DNA of 64,000 bases from assembly GCF_003387155.1 (NCBI RefSeq), contig NZ_QUMT01000002.1, forward strand, positions 129,694 to 193,693, given 5' to 3'. The translations under genes and the position numbers were made by a program. Origin of the DNA: Roseateles depolymerans (GTDB lineage Bacteria; Pseudomonadota; Gammaproteobacteria; Burkholderiales; Burkholderiaceae_C). Below the pieces are notes generated by a model, which was not told where the DNA came from, did no database searches, and saw only the letters and a list, made by a program, of their open reading frames with translations. Of the stretch, positions 8,360-16,143 are shown piece after piece. Numbering within the stretch: the first letter of the stretch is position 1; the number at the start of each line of letters is the position of its first letter.

Positions 8360-10792
8360 ATGAGCCGGCCGCACGACCCTTTCTTCGACGGTGACCAGCG
8401 CGCACGCCGCCCCGGCCTGCGCCTGGCCGCCGAGGACGGGCAGCGCGCGCCTGGCATGCCGGAGGAACCGCAGGACCCGCTGGCCGGTCTGGCGGACCAG
8501 CCGGCCATCGACCCGCTGCTGCACTGCCTGGCCTGGCTGACCCAGCACCACGGCCGTGCGCGATCGCCGGAATCGCTGCGGGCCGGCGCGCCGATCGAGG
8601 GCCCGCTCAGCCCGGACCAGGGCATCCGCCTCATGCGCGAGGCCGGCTACAACGCCGGGCTGCTGCGCAAGGGCATCGACGAAATCAATGCGCTGCTGCT
8701 GCCCGCGGTGCTGCTGCTCAATGGCGGCGATGCCTGCGTGCTGGTGCGGCGCCTGGACGATGGGCAGTCCGGCGGCGGTGCCCGTTATGAAGTGGTCTTC
8801 CCCGGCCCGGAAGCGGCCAGCTGCGTCGCACCGGCCTCGGAACTGGACCAGGAATACAGCGGCTTCATCCTGGCAGTCACGCCGCAGGAACAGTCGCAGG
8901 CCAAGCCGCTGGCGGGTGAACCGCCGCTGCTGCAGCCGGAAAAACACTGGCTTTGGGGCACGCTGCGCCGCTTCGTGCCGTATTACCGCTCCGCCATGCT
9001 GGCCGCGCTGCTGAGCAACGTGCTGATGCTGGTGTCGGGGCTGGTCACCTCGGTGATCTACGACAAGGTGATCCCGCACCAGGCCTACGTGACGCTGTGG
9101 ACCCTGGCGGTGGGCGCCGGCCTGGCGCTGCTGTTCGACATGTTCTCGCGCCAGCTGCGCAGCCACCTCATCGACCTGGCCGGCCGCAAGACCGACCTGA
9201 TCATCGGCGCCAAGCTGTTCCGCCAGACGCTGGGCGTGCGGATGGAACACAAGCCAGCGTCGGCCGGCTCCTATGCCCACTACCTGGCCCAGGTGGAAGT
9301 GGTGCGGGACTTCTTCACCTCCGCCACCATGTCGGCGCTGACCGACCTGCCGTTCATCGTCCTCTTCGTGGCCATGACCTTCATCGTGGGCGGGCCGCTG
9401 GGCTGGGTGCTGATGGCCGCGATTCCCTTGATGCTGGGCATGAGCCTGGCCATCCAGGGCTACCTGCGCCGCGCGATGCGCACCAACATGGCCGAGGCGG
9501 CCGACCTGCACGGCACGCTGGTGGAAGCGCTGGAGGGCCTGGAAGACCTCAAGACCTCCGGCGCGGAAGGGCGCTTCCTGCGTCGCTACGAGCAGAGCAC
9601 TGCCATCGTGGCCGAGTCCGCGCTGCGGGCCCGCACCATGTCCAGCTGGAGCATGAACATCTCCATGACCATGCAGCAGCTCATCAACCTGGTGATGCTG
9701 GTGTGGGGCGTGTATCTCATCGGCGACGGCACGATCACGGCCGGTGCGCTGATCGGCGCCGTCATGTTTGCCGGCCGGGCCACCATGCCGCTGAACAGCC
9801 TGGTCAGCCTGGCCACGCGGTACCAAGGGGCGCGGGCCGCGATGCTGTCGCTCAACTCGGTGATGAGCGCGCCGACCGAGCGCGAGTCCCAGCGCAACTA
9901 TGTGCCGCTGACCCAGGTCACCGGCCGCATGGGCCTGACCGATGTCGGTTTCAGCTACCCGGCGCAAGGCGATGCCCAGTCGCCCAAGGTGCTGCGCAAT
10001 GTCACGCTGCGCATCAATCCGGGCGAGCGCATTGCGGTGCTGGGCCGCATCGGCAGCGGCAAGTCCACTGTGCTGCGCATGCTCGCGGGGCTCTATCAGC
10101 CGACCGAAGGCATGGTGGAAGTGGACGGCATCGACCTGCGGCAGGTGGACCCCGCCGAATTCCGCAGCAAGGTCGGTTTCGTGTCGCAGGAACCGCGGCT
10201 GTTCCACGGCACCCTGCGCGACAACGTGCTGATGGGCCGTCATGTGGATGCGCAGCGCCTGGTCGAGGTGGCCAAGCTGACCGGCCTGGACCGGGTGGTG
10301 GCCAACCATCCGATGGGCTGGGACCTGCCCGTGGGTGAAATGGGCAGCCTGCTGTCCGGCGGACAGCGGCAACTGGTGGCGCTGGCGCGCAGCCTGGTCA
10401 CCCGCCCGCAGATCCTGCTGATGGACGAGCCCACCAGCTCGATGGACGCCCAGTCCGAAATCGCCTTCCTTCGCCAGTTGCGGGATGCGGCCGGCGACTG
10501 CACGCTGGTCATGGTGACGCACCGCCCGGCGGTGCTGGAGCTGGTCTCCCGCATCCTGGTGGTGGATTCGGGCCGGCTGGTGATGGACGGCCCGCGCGAC
10601 CAGGTGCTGGCGGCGCTGTCGGGCGTGCGCCCGGGCGGCGCGCCGGGCCAGCAGGCACAGGGTGGGGCGCCCAACCCGGCCGCCGCGCAGGCCGCCCAGG
10701 CGGCCCATGCGGCGCAGGCAGCGCAGGTGGCCAACGGCACCGTGCACATGCATCCGGCGGCACAGCCGGTGAACCGTAACGCGGCGGTGTGA
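8360..10792 (+). CDS. Type I secretion ABC transporter/permease (LapB-type)
   Basis: This inner-membrane ATPase of a type I secretion system has 810 residues. In order it has a C39-peptidase-like N-domain (about 45-180), five to six membrane helices (about 205-470) and the nucleotide-binding domain. That domain has Walker A GRIGSGKST at 562-570, signature LSGGQ at 665-669 and Walker B ILLMDE at 685-690. The C39-like domain seems to lack a canonical catalytic Cys/His arrangement, as in LapB/HlyB-class transporters that bind a C-terminal signal and do not cleave a leader. An unusual Ala/Gln/His-rich tail (about 755-810) follows the ATPase. It forms an operon with the glycosyltransferase upstream and HlyD downstream (overlap or direct contact at 10789-10795). 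Confidence 0.92.
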   Translation: MSRPHDPFFDGDQRARRPGLRLAAEDGQRAPGMPEEPQDPLAGLADQPAIDPLLHCLAWLTQHHGRARSPESLRAGAPIEGPLSPDQGIRLMREAGYNAGLLRKGIDEINALLLPAVLLLNGGDACVLVRRLDDGQSGGGARYEVVFPGPEAASCVAPASELDQEYSGFILAVTPQEQSQAKPLAGEPPLLQPEKHWLWGTLRRFVPYYRSAMLAALLSNVLMLVSGLVTSVIYDKVIPHQAYVTLWTLAVGAGLALLFDMFSRQLRSHLIDLAGRKTDLIIGAKLFRQTLGVRMEHKPASAGSYAHYLAQVEVVRDFFTSATMSALTDLPFIVLFVAMTFIVGGPLGWVLMAAIPLMLGMSLAIQGYLRRAMRTNMAEAADLHGTLVEALEGLEDLKTSGAEGRFLRRYEQSTAIVAESALRARTMSSWSMNISMTMQQLINLVMLVWGVYLIGDGTITAGALIGAVMFAGRATMPLNSLVSLATRYQGARAAMLSLNSVMSAPTERESQRNYVPLTQVTGRMGLTDVGFSYPAQGDAQSPKVLRNVTLRINPGERIAVLGRIGSGKSTVLRMLAGLYQPTEGMVEVDGIDLRQVDPAEFRSKVGFVSQEPRLFHGTLRDNVLMGRHVDAQRLVEVAKLTGLDRVVANHPMGWDLPVGEMGSLLSGGQRQLVALARSLVTRPQILLMDEPTSSMDAQSEIAFLRQLRDAAGDCTLVMVTHRPAVLELVSRILVVDSGRLVMDGPRDQVLAALSGVRPGGAPGQQAQGGAPNPAAAQAAQAAHAAQAAQVANGTVHMHPAAQPVNRNAAV

Positions 10793-10794
10793 GC

Positions 10795-12003
10795 ATGTCC
10801 CAGCCCCGAACCCTGTCCCGCGAGGACAACCTCTTCATCAGCAGCGTGCAGTCGGCCATGATCGACGAGCCGCTGCCCAAGACCGTCTGGGTGCTGTATC
10901 TGCTGGCGATCGTACTGGTGGCGGGCATTGCCTGGTCGTCGCTGGCCACTGTCGACGAGGTCACCCGCAGCGACGCCCGCATCGTGCCGGACGGCAAGGA
11001 GCAGATCGTCACCAGCCTGGAGAGCGGCGTGCTGAGCAAGCTGCTGGTGCGTGAGGGCGAGGAAGTCGAGGCCGGGCAGCCGCTGGCCGAGCTGGATCCC
11101 ACCCGCGCCGAGGCCGCCCAGAATGAAAGCCAGGTCAAGCGCCTGGGCCTGATGGCGCAGGTGGCCCGGCTGCGGGCCGAAGCGCTCGGGCTGGCCCTGA
11201 AGTTCCCGCCGGAAGTGCAGCAGGTGCAGCGGCTGGTCGATAGCGAATCCGAAGTCTTCGACACCCGCCGGCGCGTGCTGGACGAAGCAGTGTCCAGCTA
11301 CAACCGCAGCATCGGGCTGCTGGCGTCGGAGCTGAAGATGGCGCAGGACATGTCGGCCAAGGGCCTGATGTCCAACGTCGAGGTGATGCGGCTGAACCGC
11401 CAGGTCAACGAGCTGCAGCAGCAGCGCAACGAGCGCATCAGCCGCTTCCGTCAAGAGGCCAGCACCGATCTGTCGCGGGTGCAGACCGAGCTGGCGCAGA
11501 TCGACGAGCAGATGGTGGTGCGCCGCGATGCGCTGCAGCACACCGTGCTGAAGTCGCCGGTCAAGGGCTTCGTCAAGAACATCAAGATGAACACCGTGGG
11601 CAGCGCGGTGTCGTCCGGCGCGGCCATCATGGAGATCGTGCCGATGGGCGCGCGGGTGCTGGTGGAGGCCCGCATCAAGCCCAAGGACATCGGCTTCCTG
11701 CAGGTGGGCCAGTCCGCAGTGGTGAAGGTCAACGGCTACGACTTCAACGTCAACGGCGGCATGCACGGCAAGATCGAATACATCAGTCCGGATGCGCTGG
11801 GCGAGACCGAGAAGAACGGCGAAGGCACCTACTACCGGGTGATCGTGGCCGCCGAGCGGGTCGACATCAAGCTGCATGGCGAGCCGCTGCCGGTCATCCC
11901 CGGCATGACCGCCTCGCTGGAGATCCGCACCGGGGAGCGCTCGGTGCTGAGTTATCTGCTGCGGCCGATGCTCAAGTCGCGGGAAGCGCTGCGGGAGCGG
12001 TAG
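10795..12003 (+). CDS. HlyD family type I secretion periplasmic adaptor
   Basis: This membrane fusion protein links the ABC transporter to the outer-membrane channel. It has about 402 residues with one N-terminal membrane segment (roughly 25-45), a biotinyl-lipoyl-like half (EQIVTSLESGVLSKLLVREGE), a central coiled coil (about 100-230) and a C-terminal beta domain (VKGFVKNIKMNTVG onward). A GTG at 10789 overlaps the upstream stop (GTGA) and may be the real start, adding two residues; translational coupling is likely either way. Confidence 0.92.
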   Translation: MSQPRTLSREDNLFISSVQSAMIDEPLPKTVWVLYLLAIVLVAGIAWSSLATVDEVTRSDARIVPDGKEQIVTSLESGVLSKLLVREGEEVEAGQPLAELDPTRAEAAQNESQVKRLGLMAQVARLRAEALGLALKFPPEVQQVQRLVDSESEVFDTRRRVLDEAVSSYNRSIGLLASELKMAQDMSAKGLMSNVEVMRLNRQVNELQQQRNERISRFRQEASTDLSRVQTELAQIDEQMVVRRDALQHTVLKSPVKGFVKNIKMNTVGSAVSSGAAIMEIVPMGARVLVEARIKPKDIGFLQVGQSAVVKVNGYDFNVNGGMHGKIEYISPDALGETEKNGEGTYYRVIVAAERVDIKLHGEPLPVIPGMTASLEIRTGERSVLSYLLRPMLKSREALRER

Positions 12004-12305
12004 CCCCACGGGACGGATCTGCGCCGCAAGGACGGGGCAGAAGCCGTGATGTCCTTCATGCAGACAGCCGCCGTGCGCGGCTGTCGTCACGTTTGGACGC
12101 AGCGCTTACCAGGTGCCCGGTTCACAGACGGGCGGCGGTGGCCGGACAGTCCGCTCCAGTGGGTGTCGGCGTGCGCGTGGGTGTGGACGCAGACGGGGCG
12201 CGGGAGCGCGGAGGAGGGCTGGGCTTTGGCTGCTTATCGAGGCTTTGCGCGGAGCCGGACATGGTCCAGTAGAGGCATGGGAAATTGCTTGTAGTCCGCA
12301 TCACC
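12004..12305. other. Intergenic spacer within the T1SS cluster
   Basis: About 300 bases separate the HlyD and TolC genes. The only structure noted is a 9-bp hairpin GACAGCCGC-CGTGC-GCGGCTGTC (12063-12085) without a T tract, possibly an attenuator or RNA-stability element. Open frames here have no credible start or similarity and look spurious. Confidence 0.5.
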
Positions 12306-13703
12306 ATGACTCAACCGACTCTGCGCCGGAGCTTGCGGCGCCTCTCGTTCAGCACCCCCGTGGCCTTCGCATTGGCGGCCACGCTGGTGTCGCCCGCCTG
12401 GGCACAGGACCCGCCGCCCAGCCGCTGCAGCGACGATGGCAGCCTGCCGCCGTCATCCGCCGCGGCGCGGGATGCGACCTTGCTGGAAACCGGCTCGGCC
12501 GACCCGCGCTCGCAACTGCAGGAGCTGGTGCAGAAGGCGCTGGATCGCAGCAAGTCCATCGGTGCCAGCCGATTGCTGGCGCAGGCGGCGGAGGCCGATC
12601 TGGCGGAAGCCAAGGCGCAGCGCCTGCCCACGGTCAACCTGGGCCTGACCGGCTCGCATGTGGGCTCGCAGATTCCGGGCGACGGACCGGCCGGCCGCAG
12701 CTCCGGCCTGCAAGGGCGCGGCACGCTGAGCGTGACGGCGCCGCTGTATGACTCGGGGCGCATCACCAAGCTGACCGAATGGCGGGCGCAACTGGCGGAG
12801 GCTGCGCGCTACAGCCAGAACAGTGCGGAAGAGCAGGTGGCCCTGCAAACCGTGTCGCTGGCGCTGGACCGCGGTCGTTATCAGCTACAGGCGCAGGTCT
12901 ACAGCCAGTACACCCGCAAGATGGCCTGTCTGGTCGAGGCGCTGGAAATCATCACCAAGGCGGACCGCGGTCGCGCCAGTGAACTGGTGCAGGCGCAAAA
13001 GAGCCTGCAGCAGGCGGACCTCTCCTACGAGCAGACGGTCTCGGCCCTGCGCACGACGGAAGTGCGGCTGCGGCGGTATGTGGGCGAGGAATTGCCACGT
13101 CCCGCGGCGATGAGCTCGGTGCTGGCCCGTCTGCCAGATCTGAATGAAGCCATGGCCGATGTGCTGGTGTCGGCGGATGTGTCGCAGGCCTCGGCCACGG
13201 CTCAAGCGCAGCGCAGCTATGCGGAGTCGGTGCGGGCGGGCCAGCAGCCCAGCGTGAGCCTGCTGGTGCAGGGCAGTGCGACGGTGGGTCAGGCCAAGCA
13301 GAACGACTGGATCGGCGGCGTGCAGGTCAACATTCCGATCGTGCAGCCGGGCGCGGATTCAGCGCTGACGTCGGCCAGGCGACGTGCCCAGGCCGCGTCG
13401 ATGCAACGGGACGACACGATCGAGGCCAAGCGCTACCGAGTGCAGGAGATGTTTGAAGCCGCGCAGTCGTCGCTGGACCGGTCGCGTCGCATCGTGGACA
13501 TTCTGCGCAACAGCGACCGGGTGCGGGGCTTTACGCTGCAGCAGTGGCAGCAGCTGGGCAAACGCTCGCTGTTTGATGTGATGGCCGCCGAAGGCGACTA
13601 CTACTCGATGCGGATCGCGCATGTGAATGCGCTGTACGACGCCCAGCAGGTGGTGGCCATCATCTGGTCGCAGGGGCGTGGGGTGGTGACGCCGCTGCGT
13701 TGA
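12306..13703 (+). CDS. TolC family outer-membrane channel protein
   Basis: This is the outer-membrane component of the type I secretion system, 465 residues from ATG 12306. The signal peptide covers about residues 1-35 (hydrophobic PVAFALAATLVSPAWAQ). The two long helical repeats of OEP/TolC proteins are visible, for example SRLLAQAAEADLAEAKAQRL, GSHVGSQIPGDG and the second-half equivalent AQRSYAESVRAGQQPSVSLL. It follows HlyD after 300 bases, so it may have a second promoter. No substrate gene (RTX repeats, giant adhesin) is adjacent. Confidence 0.9.
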   Translation: MTQPTLRRSLRRLSFSTPVAFALAATLVSPAWAQDPPPSRCSDDGSLPPSSAAARDATLLETGSADPRSQLQELVQKALDRSKSIGASRLLAQAAEADLAEAKAQRLPTVNLGLTGSHVGSQIPGDGPAGRSSGLQGRGTLSVTAPLYDSGRITKLTEWRAQLAEAARYSQNSAEEQVALQTVSLALDRGRYQLQAQVYSQYTRKMACLVEALEIITKADRGRASELVQAQKSLQQADLSYEQTVSALRTTEVRLRRYVGEELPRPAAMSSVLARLPDLNEAMADVLVSADVSQASATAQAQRSYAESVRAGQQPSVSLLVQGSATVGQAKQNDWIGGVQVNIPIVQPGADSALTSARRRAQAASMQRDDTIEAKRYRVQEMFEAAQSSLDRSRRIVDILRNSDRVRGFTLQQWQQLGKRSLFDVMAAEGDYYSMRIAHVNALYDAQQVVAIIWSQGRGVVTPLR

Positions 13704-14014: not shown

Positions 14015-14971
14015 TTACTTGACGCTGCGGCGACGCTGGGCGAAGCCCAGGCCGGCCAGGGCCAGACCCACCAGCGCCAGGCTGCCAGGTTCCGGCACAT
14101 TCAGCGTCACCGATCCGTCCAGACCCGATTGACGGATCAGGGCAGAACCGGAGTTCCACAGTTGCGACGGAGTCGCCAGCGGGGGATCCACGTTGGTGTC
14201 CAGGATCCAGCTCACCGAGATCGGGTTGTTCAGCCAGTTGCTGTAGAGCGAACCCAGGCCTTCGCCAGAATTGAAGAAGTTCTGGATGAAGGAGTCGCCG
14301 GCCGCGTAGCTGTAGTCCACCACACCCTTGATGTAGAGGTTGGCATCGGTGACTTCCGAGCTTTCCACCACCAGGCGCAGCACTTCCTTGTTGTTGTTGG
14401 GATCGGTCGCCGCGCTTTGATAGTACAGGCTGAAGACGCCGGTGTTGTATTCCACCGTATCGGACACCCCGTCGCCGTCCTTGTCCACCGTCGTGCCGAC
14501 GATCTGGTAGGCATAGGTCAGACCCCACGCGCCGCCCAGGCCGCCAATGGCCCCTGCACCGTACTGCGGGAAGGCCTCGCCGCCGGTAAACCCGTTCAGG
14601 TCGGGCGCCGACGGATTGTTCAGCGTGTCGATGTTGTTCTGCGACGGAATGTTCGGGAAGGAAAAGCTCAGCGGGGTCGAACCGTCAATAGCCGTCTTCG
14701 AGCCCGCGCTGAACCCGTAGAAGCTCATGATCGACGGGATGTTGGTGTCCACCACCGTGGTGCCCGGCGTGGCCGGATTACCCAGGTAGATGGAGGTGGC
14801 CAGCGTGCCGCTGTAGCCCAGCTGGTCGAACACCGCCGTCGTGGTGGAACCGTTGGGTTCGAAATTGAAATCGGAACCCGTGTTGATATACAGGGGCGAC
14901 GCCAGGGCTGGCGCCGCAGCTGCACCCACCACTACCAGGGCGGCCAGGGCGAGCTTCGCTTGCTTGAACAT
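14015..14971 (-). CDS. PEP-CTERM sorting domain-containing protein
   Basis: This secreted protein of 318 residues is a predicted exosortase substrate. It has an N-terminal signal peptide (MFKQAKLALAALVVVGAAAA, cleavage near ALASP) and a long Ser/Thr/Asn/Gly-rich extracellular region. It ends with a PEP-CTERM signal: VPEPGSL, a hydrophobic stretch (ALVGLALAGLGFA) and a terminal QRRRSVK. ATG 14971 is chosen because AAAGGAGA lies just upstream. It is about 1.3 kb from the exosortase A locus that would process it, is followed by an intrinsic terminator and is preceded by a sigma-54-like promoter. The function of the mature region is unknown; related proteins are matrix or floc components. Confidence 0.92.
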   Translation of the reverse strand: MFKQAKLALAALVVVGAAAAPALASPLYINTGSDFNFEPNGSTTTAVFDQLGYSGTLATSIYLGNPATPGTTVVDTNIPSIMSFYGFSAGSKTAIDGSTPLSFSFPNIPSQNNIDTLNNPSAPDLNGFTGGEAFPQYGAGAIGGLGGAWGLTYAYQIVGTTVDKDGDGVSDTVEYNTGVFSLYYQSAATDPNNNKEVLRLVVESSEVTDANLYIKGVVDYSYAAGDSFIQNFFNSGEGLGSLYSNWLNNPISVSWILDTNVDPPLATPSQLWNSGSALIRQSGLDGSVTLNVPEPGSLALVGLALAGLGFAQRRRSVK

Positions 14972-15044
14972 GTGTCTCTCCTTTGAGATGCGTCTTGCCA
15001 GATGCACAGGGAAGCGGGGTTGCCGACTTCTTGCCCGGTTAAAT

Positions 15045-15060
15045 AGCGAGGACTGTGCCA
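15045..15060 (-). promoter_or_regulatory. Sigma-54-type promoter of the PEP-CTERM gene
   Basis: On the minus strand the sequence reads TGGCACAGTCCTCGCT: a perfect -24 TGGCAC, exactly ten bases between GG and GC, and a -12 TCGCT with one mismatch to TTGCT. The predicted start near 15034 leaves a leader of about 60 bases. A dyad CAACCA/TGGTTG (15083-15088 and 15098-15103), upstream of it, could bind an activator. PEP-CTERM genes in floc-forming betaproteobacteria are known to use RpoN with PrsK/PrsR; this site is inferred, not tested. Confidence 0.65.
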
Positions 15061-15237
15061 GCCTCCTTTAACCATTCAAAATCAACCACTTAACGTTTGG
15101 TTGCGTGAATTCTTCGGAGGGACTGTCAAGTTTGTCGACACGGATTCGGGGACATCACCGCGGCCCGCCCCGGCTTTCGCTTGCCAACCGTCACGGCATA
15201 CTTCTGCTACACGACTACAAGCATGAGGGGGTGCCCG

Positions 15238-16143
15238 ATGACAAGCGCCAACCGCGCCCTGCCAAGTGAAGAATCGCCCGCCGGCTACACCTTCAACTAC
15301 GAGCGGGCCTTTTCCCGCAACATCGGCTGGGTGACCCCAGAGGAGCAGCAGCGCCTGCGCAAGGCGCGGGTGGCGATCGCTGGCCTGGGCGGCGTGGGTG
15401 GGGCCCACATCCTGACCTTGTCCCGGCTGGGCGTGGCCAACTTCAACATTGCGGATTTCGACGAATTCGACGTCCACAACATGAATCGCCAGGCCGGCGC
15501 CTTCATGTCCACCATGGGCCATTCCAAACTCAAGGTGATGGAACGCATGGCGCTGGATGTGAATCCGGAAAGCAACATCCGGCTGTTTCCGGAGGGGGTG
15601 CAGGACCACAACCTGGATGATTTTCTGAAGGACGTGGATGTGTATGTGGACAGCCTCGACCTGTTTGTCCTGCCCACCCGCCGAAAGGTGTTCCAGCGGT
15701 GCCGCGAACTCGGCATTCCCGCCATGACGGCCGCGCCGCTGGGCATGGGTTCCGCCTTTTTGTATTTCAGCCCGACCGGCATGAGCTTCGAGGAATACTT
15801 CAAGCTGGAAGGCCGCCCGTCCACCGATCAATACGCCCGCTTCATTGCCGGCGTGTCCCCGGCCATGCTCAACCGCAAATACCTGGTGGTGCCGGAATCG
15901 GTGAATTTCGCCGAACGCCGCGGCCCCTCCACCGGCATGGCCTGCGAGCTGTGCGCCGGCATGATGGGCACTCAGGTGCTCAAGCTGTTGCTGGGCCGCG
16001 GGCCCCTGCGTGCGGCCCCCTGGGGCCTGCATCTGGACGCCTACCGGGGCATCCTCAAGCACACCTGGCGGCCCCTGGGCAATGCCAACCCCATCCAGCG
16101 CCTCTTGATCAGCCTGATCAAACCCCTGCTTCGAGGGGGATGA
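15238..16143 (+). CDS. ThiF/MoeB/HesA (E1-like) family protein
   Basis: This 301-residue cytosolic protein has an E1-like adenylation fold. The nucleotide-binding GLGGVGG is at 49-55, the acidic/Arg segment IADFDEFDVHNMNRQ at 71-85 and Lys residues lie near 97-99. Members adenylate the C-terminal Gly of ubiquitin-like or sulfur-carrier proteins, or a peptide. Only one CXXC (CELC, 236-239) is present instead of the two zinc-binding pairs of ThiF/MoeB, so zinc binding would be incomplete. ATG 15238 has GAGGGGG (15225-15231) upstream. No ThiS/MoaD-like partner is nearby. It stands alone between the PEP-CTERM gene and the XrtA operon, so its role is unknown. Confidence 0.8.
   Translation: MTSANRALPSEESPAGYTFNYERAFSRNIGWVTPEEQQRLRKARVAIAGLGGVGGAHILTLSRLGVANFNIADFDEFDVHNMNRQAGAFMSTMGHSKLKVMERMALDVNPESNIRLFPEGVQDHNLDDFLKDVDVYVDSLDLFVLPTRRKVFQRCRELGIPAMTAAPLGMGSAFLYFSPTGMSFEEYFKLEGRPSTDQYARFIAGVSPAMLNRKYLVVPESVNFAERRGPSTGMACELCAGMMGTQVLKLLLGRGPLRAAPWGLHLDAYRGILKHTWRPLGNANPIQRLLISLIKPLLRGG

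Follow-up and report, generated by a model that had tools for sequence, protein, structure and literature searches.

Floc formation in sludge bacteria is under the control of PEP-CTERM proteins, which presumably also make up biofilm matrix. The closest described promoter class for their genes was predicted in 2006, the available text of Haft et al. (PMC1569441) describing a 17-nt motif 1 that ends in TTTACA, a spacer with a mean length of 62.8 nt (SD 10.6; range 32-92) and a sigma-54 motif, together with the prediction that PrsR binds there. In the available parts of later reports, the pepA gene of Aquincola tertiaricarbonis RN12 requires RpoN1 and starts at a mapped position below TGGCAC/CTGCTT (PMC9850573), a PEP-CTERM gene of Zoogloea resiniphila depends on RpoN and PrsK-PrsR (as summarised in PMC9012009), and the PrsR-type regulator DVUA0057 of Desulfovibrio vulgaris shows DAP-chip enrichment upstream of all five of its predicted PEP-CTERM targets (PMC3333781). 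In sigma-54 promoters assisted by IHF, the IHF site lies between enhancer and promoter, the usual distance being 100-140 bp (PMC7962754).

A sigma-54-type promoter and its PEP-CTERM gene

The locus lies in a window of 64,000 nt of Roseateles depolymerans (the whole stretch of DNA analysed, G000:C2:129694-193693) and comprises the following features:

14015 to 14971, minus strand: gene for a PEP-CTERM sorting-domain protein of 318 aa (TIGR02595, 21.4 bits; cut-off 16)
14978 to 14983, minus strand: Shine-Dalgarno sequence AAGGAG ahead of the ATG, read from the sequence
15034, minus strand: predicted transcription start, giving a 63-nt leader, placed by standard -12 numbering
15045 to 15060, minus strand: sigma-54 -24/-12 promoter TGGCACAGTCCTCGCT, with exact GG-N10-GC spacing, its TGGCAC-N5-TCGCT kept in all four orthologues
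15080 to 15092, minus strand: IHF-type site TAAGTGGTTGATT, matching the reverse complement of WATCAANNNNTTR at 13/13 positions, and at 13/13 in three and 12/13 in one of the four orthologues
15083 to 15103, no strand: CAACCA-N9-TGGTTG dyad, exact, judged not functional as a dyad
15124 to 15140, minus strand: likely enhancer TGTCGACAAACTTGACA (motif 1 of Haft et al.; predicted to bind PrsR), a 17-nt near-palindrome 63 nt upstream of the sigma-54 site

The encoded protein starts at an ATG at 14971 and has a signal-peptide-like N-terminus and NVPEPGSLALVGLALAGLGFAQRRRSVK at its C-terminus. An earlier note on this DNA had placed a sigma-54 promoter about 60 bases before this start. The site is exactly where that note put it, with TGGCACAGTCCTCGCT reading from 15060 to 15045 on the minus strand and the GG-N10-GC spacing intact; the distance holds only loosely, since it is the predicted start at about 15034 that gives a 63-nt leader, the site itself lying 73 nt (from its 3' end) to 89 nt (from its 5' end) before the ATG.

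Taken singly, the elements are within chance for a window of this size. TGGCAC-N5-TYGCW has one match in the window, and the sigma-54 hexamers alone are not significant, because 0.29 matches are expected and at least one occurs in 28 of 100 shuffles; genome-wide the pattern has 14 matches against four for the reversed control, with a PEP-CTERM gene downstream of two of the 14. Similarly, TGTC-N9-GACA occurs twice in the window against 0.57 expected, a count reached in 13 of 100 shuffles and not significant alone. The site is above chance through the combination and geometry of its elements, both of which recur in four orthologues and throughout the family. The sigma-54 site is very probably real, and the whole looks like a genuine, evolutionarily conserved switch of a surface-protein gene.

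Genomic setting and comparison with described systems

The earlier note had remarked that no prsKR lies in the window, and the prsK-prsR tandem is found at C2:646501-650047, some 453 kb beyond the right-hand end of the window. PrsR scores 700.8 bits against a cut-off of 502.6, and PrsK 775.2 bits against one of 300. PrsR, one of 12 places scoring above 160 bits as NtrC-like regulators in the genome, carries GAFTGA. Two rpoN genes are present, at C4:19761-21275 and C2:428251-429618. To the right of the PEP-CTERM gene the window holds an XrtA exosortase/EPS cluster (export protein, chain-length determinant, tyrosine kinase, ATPase, deacetylase, FemAB, glycosyltransferases, exosortase A, amidotransferase and O-ligase). 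Beside the gene and this cluster, on the left, lies a type I secretion system (LssB-type ABC, HlyD and TolC; window 8360-13703), and a divergent gene for a ThiF/MoeB-like adenylyltransferase (window 15238-16143; NF006077, 426.5 bits) has its intergenic region in common with the enhancer.

The locus resembles the class of Haft et al. in its 17-nt motif, its 63-nt spacer (within the range of 32-92), its sigma-54 GG/GC motif 2, its PEP-CTERM gene and the presence of prsK and prsR in the genome, but its motif 1 ends in TTGACA where that of Haft et al. ends in TTTACA (PMC1569441, available text). This ending is a one-letter variant (G for T) within motif 1; among 42 PEP-linked sites of relatives (see below), eight end in GACA and 34 in TACA. 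The window promoter is therefore a new member of the class predicted in 2006. Carriers number three of 20 PEP-CTERM genes here, compared with 99 of 167 proteobacterial genes in Haft et al., and an IHF-type site and helical spacer steps were found here, whereas the available text of that study mentions neither IHF nor stepwise spacing (PMC1569441).

Likewise, the locus shares with pepA of A. tertiaricarbonis RN12 the TGGCAC -24 element, the PEP-CTERM gene, a predicted upstream enhancer and prsK/prsR in the genome, but differs in its -12 element (CTGCTT in Aquincola, TCGCT in the window), and IHF is not mentioned for pepA in the accessible text (PMC9850573). DVUA0057 and the PrsR found here are both PrsR-type regulators with predicted PEP-CTERM targets, although D. 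vulgaris is a distant organism and the accessible text gives no validated binding motif for DVUA0057 (PMC3333781). The IHF-type site lies between enhancer and promoter as in IHF-assisted sigma-54 promoters, in contrast with whose usual form, as described in the accessible text, the spacer here is short (about 63 nt) and the IHF-type site occurs in two mirrored orientations (PMC7962754).

Conservation among orthologues

A whole-protein search of 200 family genomes gave a match in 47, mostly to the C-terminal PEP domain only. A scan of named genomes yielded four orthologues, 74-92% identical to the PEP-CTERM protein of the window (two from Roseateles, one from a Rubrivivax MAG and one from a Burkholderiaceae MAG). 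All four keep the enhancer (with no or one change), the exact 63-nt spacer and TGGCAC-N5-TCGCT. The IHF-type element YAA-N4-TTGATW is matched at 13/13 positions in three of them and at 12/13 in L236, on an alignment read by eye. Between the enhancer and the IHF-type site, a AATTCACG block (window 15104-15111, minus strand) is also conserved in the window and in all four orthologues (L233-L236).

The earlier note had pointed to the CAACCA/TGGTTG dyad upstream of this promoter, implying an activator site. As a sequence it stands: the repeat is an exact 6-bp inverted repeat at 15083-15103, few of which are expected by chance (0.15 in the window at up to one mismatch, with at least one in 13 of 100 shuffles), and its left arm CAACCA is intact in three of the four orthologues. 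As an activator element it does not, since the right arm TGGTTG is altered in all four (to TCATTG, TCGTTG, TAGCTG and TCATTG) with no matching change in the left arm, while the overlapping IHF-like letters persist. This right arm sits within the perfect IHF-consensus match TAAGTGGTTGATT, and among 45 PEP-linked spacers of the family the dyad is found in the window's own only. It was therefore rejected as the enhancer; that it is the binding site of the activator is very improbable, and it is most likely a coincidence overlapping the IHF-type site. The activator site of the window promoter is likely the near-palindrome at 15124-15140, which lies outside the span that the earlier note had covered.

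The architecture in the genome and in the family

To delimit the regulon, we compared the upstream regions of the PEP-CTERM genes of the genome (20 places at E<=1, 19 of them above the TIGR02595 cut-off). Three of the 20 have a strong sigma-54 site not far from their start, and these same three combine it with the 17-nt site; none of the 17 others has TGT-N11-ACA within 450 nt. The enhancers are TGTCGACAAACTTGACA in the window, TGTCGAAGCTTTTTACA with a second copy TGTCAGTTTCTCCGACA at L014, and TGTCAGGAAAATTTACA at L016, and the enhancer-promoter spacers measure 63, 52 and 73 nt, respectively. A weight matrix trained only on the 42 relatives' sites picks out these three from the 20 PEP-CTERM loci and none besides; its sole hit in the entire window is the promoter with the enhancer at 15124-15140, and in the 20 kb around prsKR it has no hit. 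The suggestion that the site could serve to find the rest of the regulon is thus borne out, with three of 20 PEP-CTERM genes carrying the enhancer/sigma-54 architecture. A very loose pattern (TGT-N11-ACA, N48-78, TGG-N10-GC) gave 81 matches in this genome against 24 for the control, an excess that we excluded from the evidence.

A second PEP-CTERM gene of the genome, L014 (G000:C1:1445358 region), carries the enhancer twice, at 188 and 124 nt upstream of its ATG. The three genes with the architecture have a common NVPEP[GA][ST]LAL tail, and PEPxxYA is present in seven of the 17 others, a difference in tails hinting at what may be separate sub-sets of PEP-CTERM genes.

Next, 200 family genomes were scanned with the strict pattern TGTC-N9-KACA, N45-75, TGGCNC-N5-TNGCW and a reversed-pattern control, IHF being absent from all site search patterns. 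The scan gave 58 sites against nine for the control. The only three strict matches in the window's own genome all precede PEP-CTERM genes, and, with these three included, a PEP-CTERM gene lies downstream of 45 of the 58 sites, as identified by a fallible regular expression on the C-terminus, with the 45 PEP-linked tails checked by eye. PrsR scores above its cut-off in 52 of the 200 genomes. PEP-linked strict sites are present in 27 of these 52 and in none of the 148 genomes without PrsR (Fisher 2.4e-19), and are absent from the remaining 25 of the 52; nine further genomes have non-PEP strict matches only, seven of them lacking PrsR. The sigma-54 type and the PrsK/PrsR control proposed in the earlier note are hence supported by the genome's prsK, prsR and pair of rpoN genes, by a complete motif 1 and motif 2, and by the co-occurrence of the architecture with PrsR.

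Spacer lengths and helical phasing

The 45 PEP-linked family spacers fall at 50-52 nt (nine), 56 (one), 61-64 (29), 67 (one) and 73 (five), such that 43 of 45 lie within 50-52, 61-64 or 73 and only those of 56 and 67 are off-phase. The spacers of the 13 non-PEP strict matches are spread over 48-74. Rayleigh R at 10.5 bp is 0.80 for PEP-linked spacers (the maximum in 20,000 uniform draws being 0.46) and 0.42 for non-PEP ones; the clustering is strong and its period approximate, since R is similar at 11-12 bp.

A second set was drawn from a 369-genome sample of the class with a spacer search up to 75 nt, which gave 67 matches against nine for the control. Leaving out four matches from the window's own family yielded 63 sites, 60 of which have spacers of 51-53, 61-65 or 71-75 nt, with the other three at 56, 70 and 70. 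By regular expression, 14 of the 63 precede a PEP-CTERM gene, 40 another ORF and nine no ORF that was found. At least eight of the 40 other ORFs have VPxPA-like sorting tails: at L166, L170, L173, L174, L190, L219, L220 and L221, all outside the family, the architecture stands before genes with VPVPAA/VPLPAA-like tails without PEP, suggesting that PrsR-type control may also cover VPLPA-type exosortase substrates. In two genomes of one genus (L178 and L198), the architecture includes a perfect IHF site, and the gene downstream encodes a small cytosolic-looking protein of 115-116 aa, MSSN-QD-FDFDTWMQLFEE, instead of a sorted one.

Spacers of 76-106 nt were scanned separately in the family, giving 25 matches against eight for the control, few of them real-looking. 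The PEP-linked ones by regular expression have spacers of 76, 82, 83, 84, 85, 94, 98 and 98 nt. Long spacers of 82-85 and 94-95 fall as predicted, and those of 76 and 98 are off-phase. Seven of these eight PEP-linked sites are in genomes with PrsR; the eighth, L242, with a spacer of 82 nt, belongs to G163, a genome that is 70% complete and gave no PrsR match. L244 (spacer 103) was dropped from the PEP-linked sites because its protein resembles an ABC-transporter subunit, a case showing that the regular expression can err. For two long-spacer sites with perfect IHF matches, at spacers of 94 and 95, no PEP gene was found.

An IHF-type site in the spacer

The nifH promoter is an example of an IHF-assisted sigma-54 promoter. 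The corresponding elements are present here, with a 13/13 consensus match between enhancer and promoter and an ihfB gene in the genome (123.7 bits; cut-off 119.95). Sites were scored with WATCAANNNNTTR, which is stricter than the published IHF consensus WATCARNNNNTTR. Matches at 13/13 positions occur in 19 of the 45 PEP-linked spacers (0.19 in shuffles, maximum 2) and matches at 12/13 or better in 32 of 45 (3.7 in shuffles, maximum 9), compared with none in the 60-nt flanks upstream of these sites and one in those downstream. For the relatives only, the counts are 17 and 30 of 42 (shuffles 0.25 and 3.7). In the remaining 13 of the 45 spacers no match reaches 12/13; L016 of the window's own genome is among them, its element CAAGTGCTTGTCA matching at 11/13, and L014 carries AATCAAGCACTTA at 13/13. 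In the class set 13/13 matches occur in 11 of 63 spacers and matches of at least 12/13 in 29 (shuffles 0.43 and 7.95); here only position and 13/13 matches discriminate, because matches of 12/13 or better likewise occur in 13 of 63 of the AT-rich flanks that precede the enhancer (13/13 in one), the downstream flank giving two and none.

Position is the strongest point for the IHF-type site. Measured upstream of the T of the -24 element, the centres of family sites lie at 12.5-13.5 nt in the forward and 23.5-25.5 nt in the reverse orientation (two outliers aside), so that the W end falls at the same distance whichever way the site faces: of the 32 family matches that score 12/13 or better, in both orientations, 30 have the W base 18-20 nt from this T, and in the class set the W end is 18-22 nt from it in 23 of 29. 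The window's site is at this standard place relative to the -24 element. Such mirrored placement about one centre would fit a symmetric bend. Among the 25 long-spacer sites, seven with spacers of 83-98 nt have their match (12/13 or better) centred at a distance of 35.5-36.5 nt, roughly a helical turn more. Strong IHF sites carry A-tracts on the W side, according to the available text of PMC9519438, and here the flank on that side exceeds the other in AT content in 24 of 28 informative cases of the family (Wilcoxon p 0.0003) and in 20 of 27 class cases (p 0.003), the forward family sites alone giving eight of ten (p 0.2).

Proposed mechanism and competing explanations

We consider it very likely that PrsR at the enhancer, a bend made by IHF and the sigma-54 polymerase constitute a three-part promoter of this PEP-CTERM surface protein. 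PrsK would phosphorylate PrsR, an NtrC-type activator, which would bind the 17-nt near-palindrome at 15124-15140; IHF would bend the DNA at 15080-15092 such that PrsR meets the sigma-54 RNA polymerase at 15045-15060, and ATP hydrolysis by PrsR would then open the promoter. This reading draws on observed sequence elements that are conserved, spaced in fixed steps and found together with PrsR, and on rpoN, prsK, prsR and ihfB in the genome; that IHF itself is the binder, and that the DNA loops in this strain, we infer from the sequence. With somewhat less assurance, the PrsR regulon of the Pseudomonadota probably places enhancer and sigma-54 site integral helical turns apart (about 52, 63, 73, 84 and 94 nt), with an IHF bend centred a fixed distance upstream of -24, or one turn further, and facing either way.

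It is unlikely that a factor other than IHF occupies the fixed YAANNNNTTGATW element, such as HU, a further regulator, or PrsR through a second contact. The 13 of 45 PEP-linked sites without a match of at least 12/13 speak for such a binder, but the letters of YAANNNNTTGATW agree with the published consensus WATCARNNNNTTR, and to our knowledge HU has no such consensus. Moreover, the two orientations mirror each other about one centre, as expected for a bend and unlike an oriented contact, and in most family and class cases the AT-rich arm lies towards the W end, the forward family sites alone remaining at p 0.2. In the accessible text of PMC7962754, the Geobacter PEP-motif gene GSU1943 is about threefold up, not down, in ihf mutants, which counts against an activating role of IHF.

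A real sigma-54 promoter driven by another NtrC-type activator of the genome appears decidedly improbable. Such regulators exist (the 12 places above 160 bits include PrsR), and L242 is PEP-linked in an incomplete genome where no PrsR was found; against this, the enhancer agrees with Haft motif 1, strict PEP-linked sites are confined to genomes with PrsR (27 of 52 against 0 of 148), and the D. vulgaris PrsR-type regulator shows enrichment in front of the five PEP-CTERM targets predicted for it (PMC3333781). That the resemblance is due to chance and another promoter serves the gene is hardly credible: the -24/-12 and TGTC-N9-GACA elements are singly within chance for the window (0.29 and 0.57 expected), but three aligned elements recur at exact spacing in four of four orthologues, and all strict matches in this genome, three in number, lie before PEP-CTERM genes.

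Implications

In the open-licence literature searched, we found no link between IHF and PEP-CTERM promoters (in the PEP-CTERM papers that name it, IHF appears in reference titles only; subscription papers may report one), and neither a fixed IHF-like position in either orientation nor spacer steps of about one turn. The fixed placement of an IHF-type site and the stepwise spacing are thus apparently undescribed details of a known kind of promoter; together with the position of the enhancer, they correct and extend the earlier note.

With a three-part promoter definition, the regulon can be listed genome by genome, and PEP-CTERM genes with the PrsR architecture (three of 20 here) can be set apart from the others. 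This definition also predicts IHF as a factor and a face-of-the-helix requirement. If the helical steps and the IHF bend hold for the PrsR regulon of the Pseudomonadota at large, IHF would be a general third component in the control of PEP-CTERM genes, and of some VPLPA-type genes, and the surface proteins of flocs and biofilms would be tied to growth phase.
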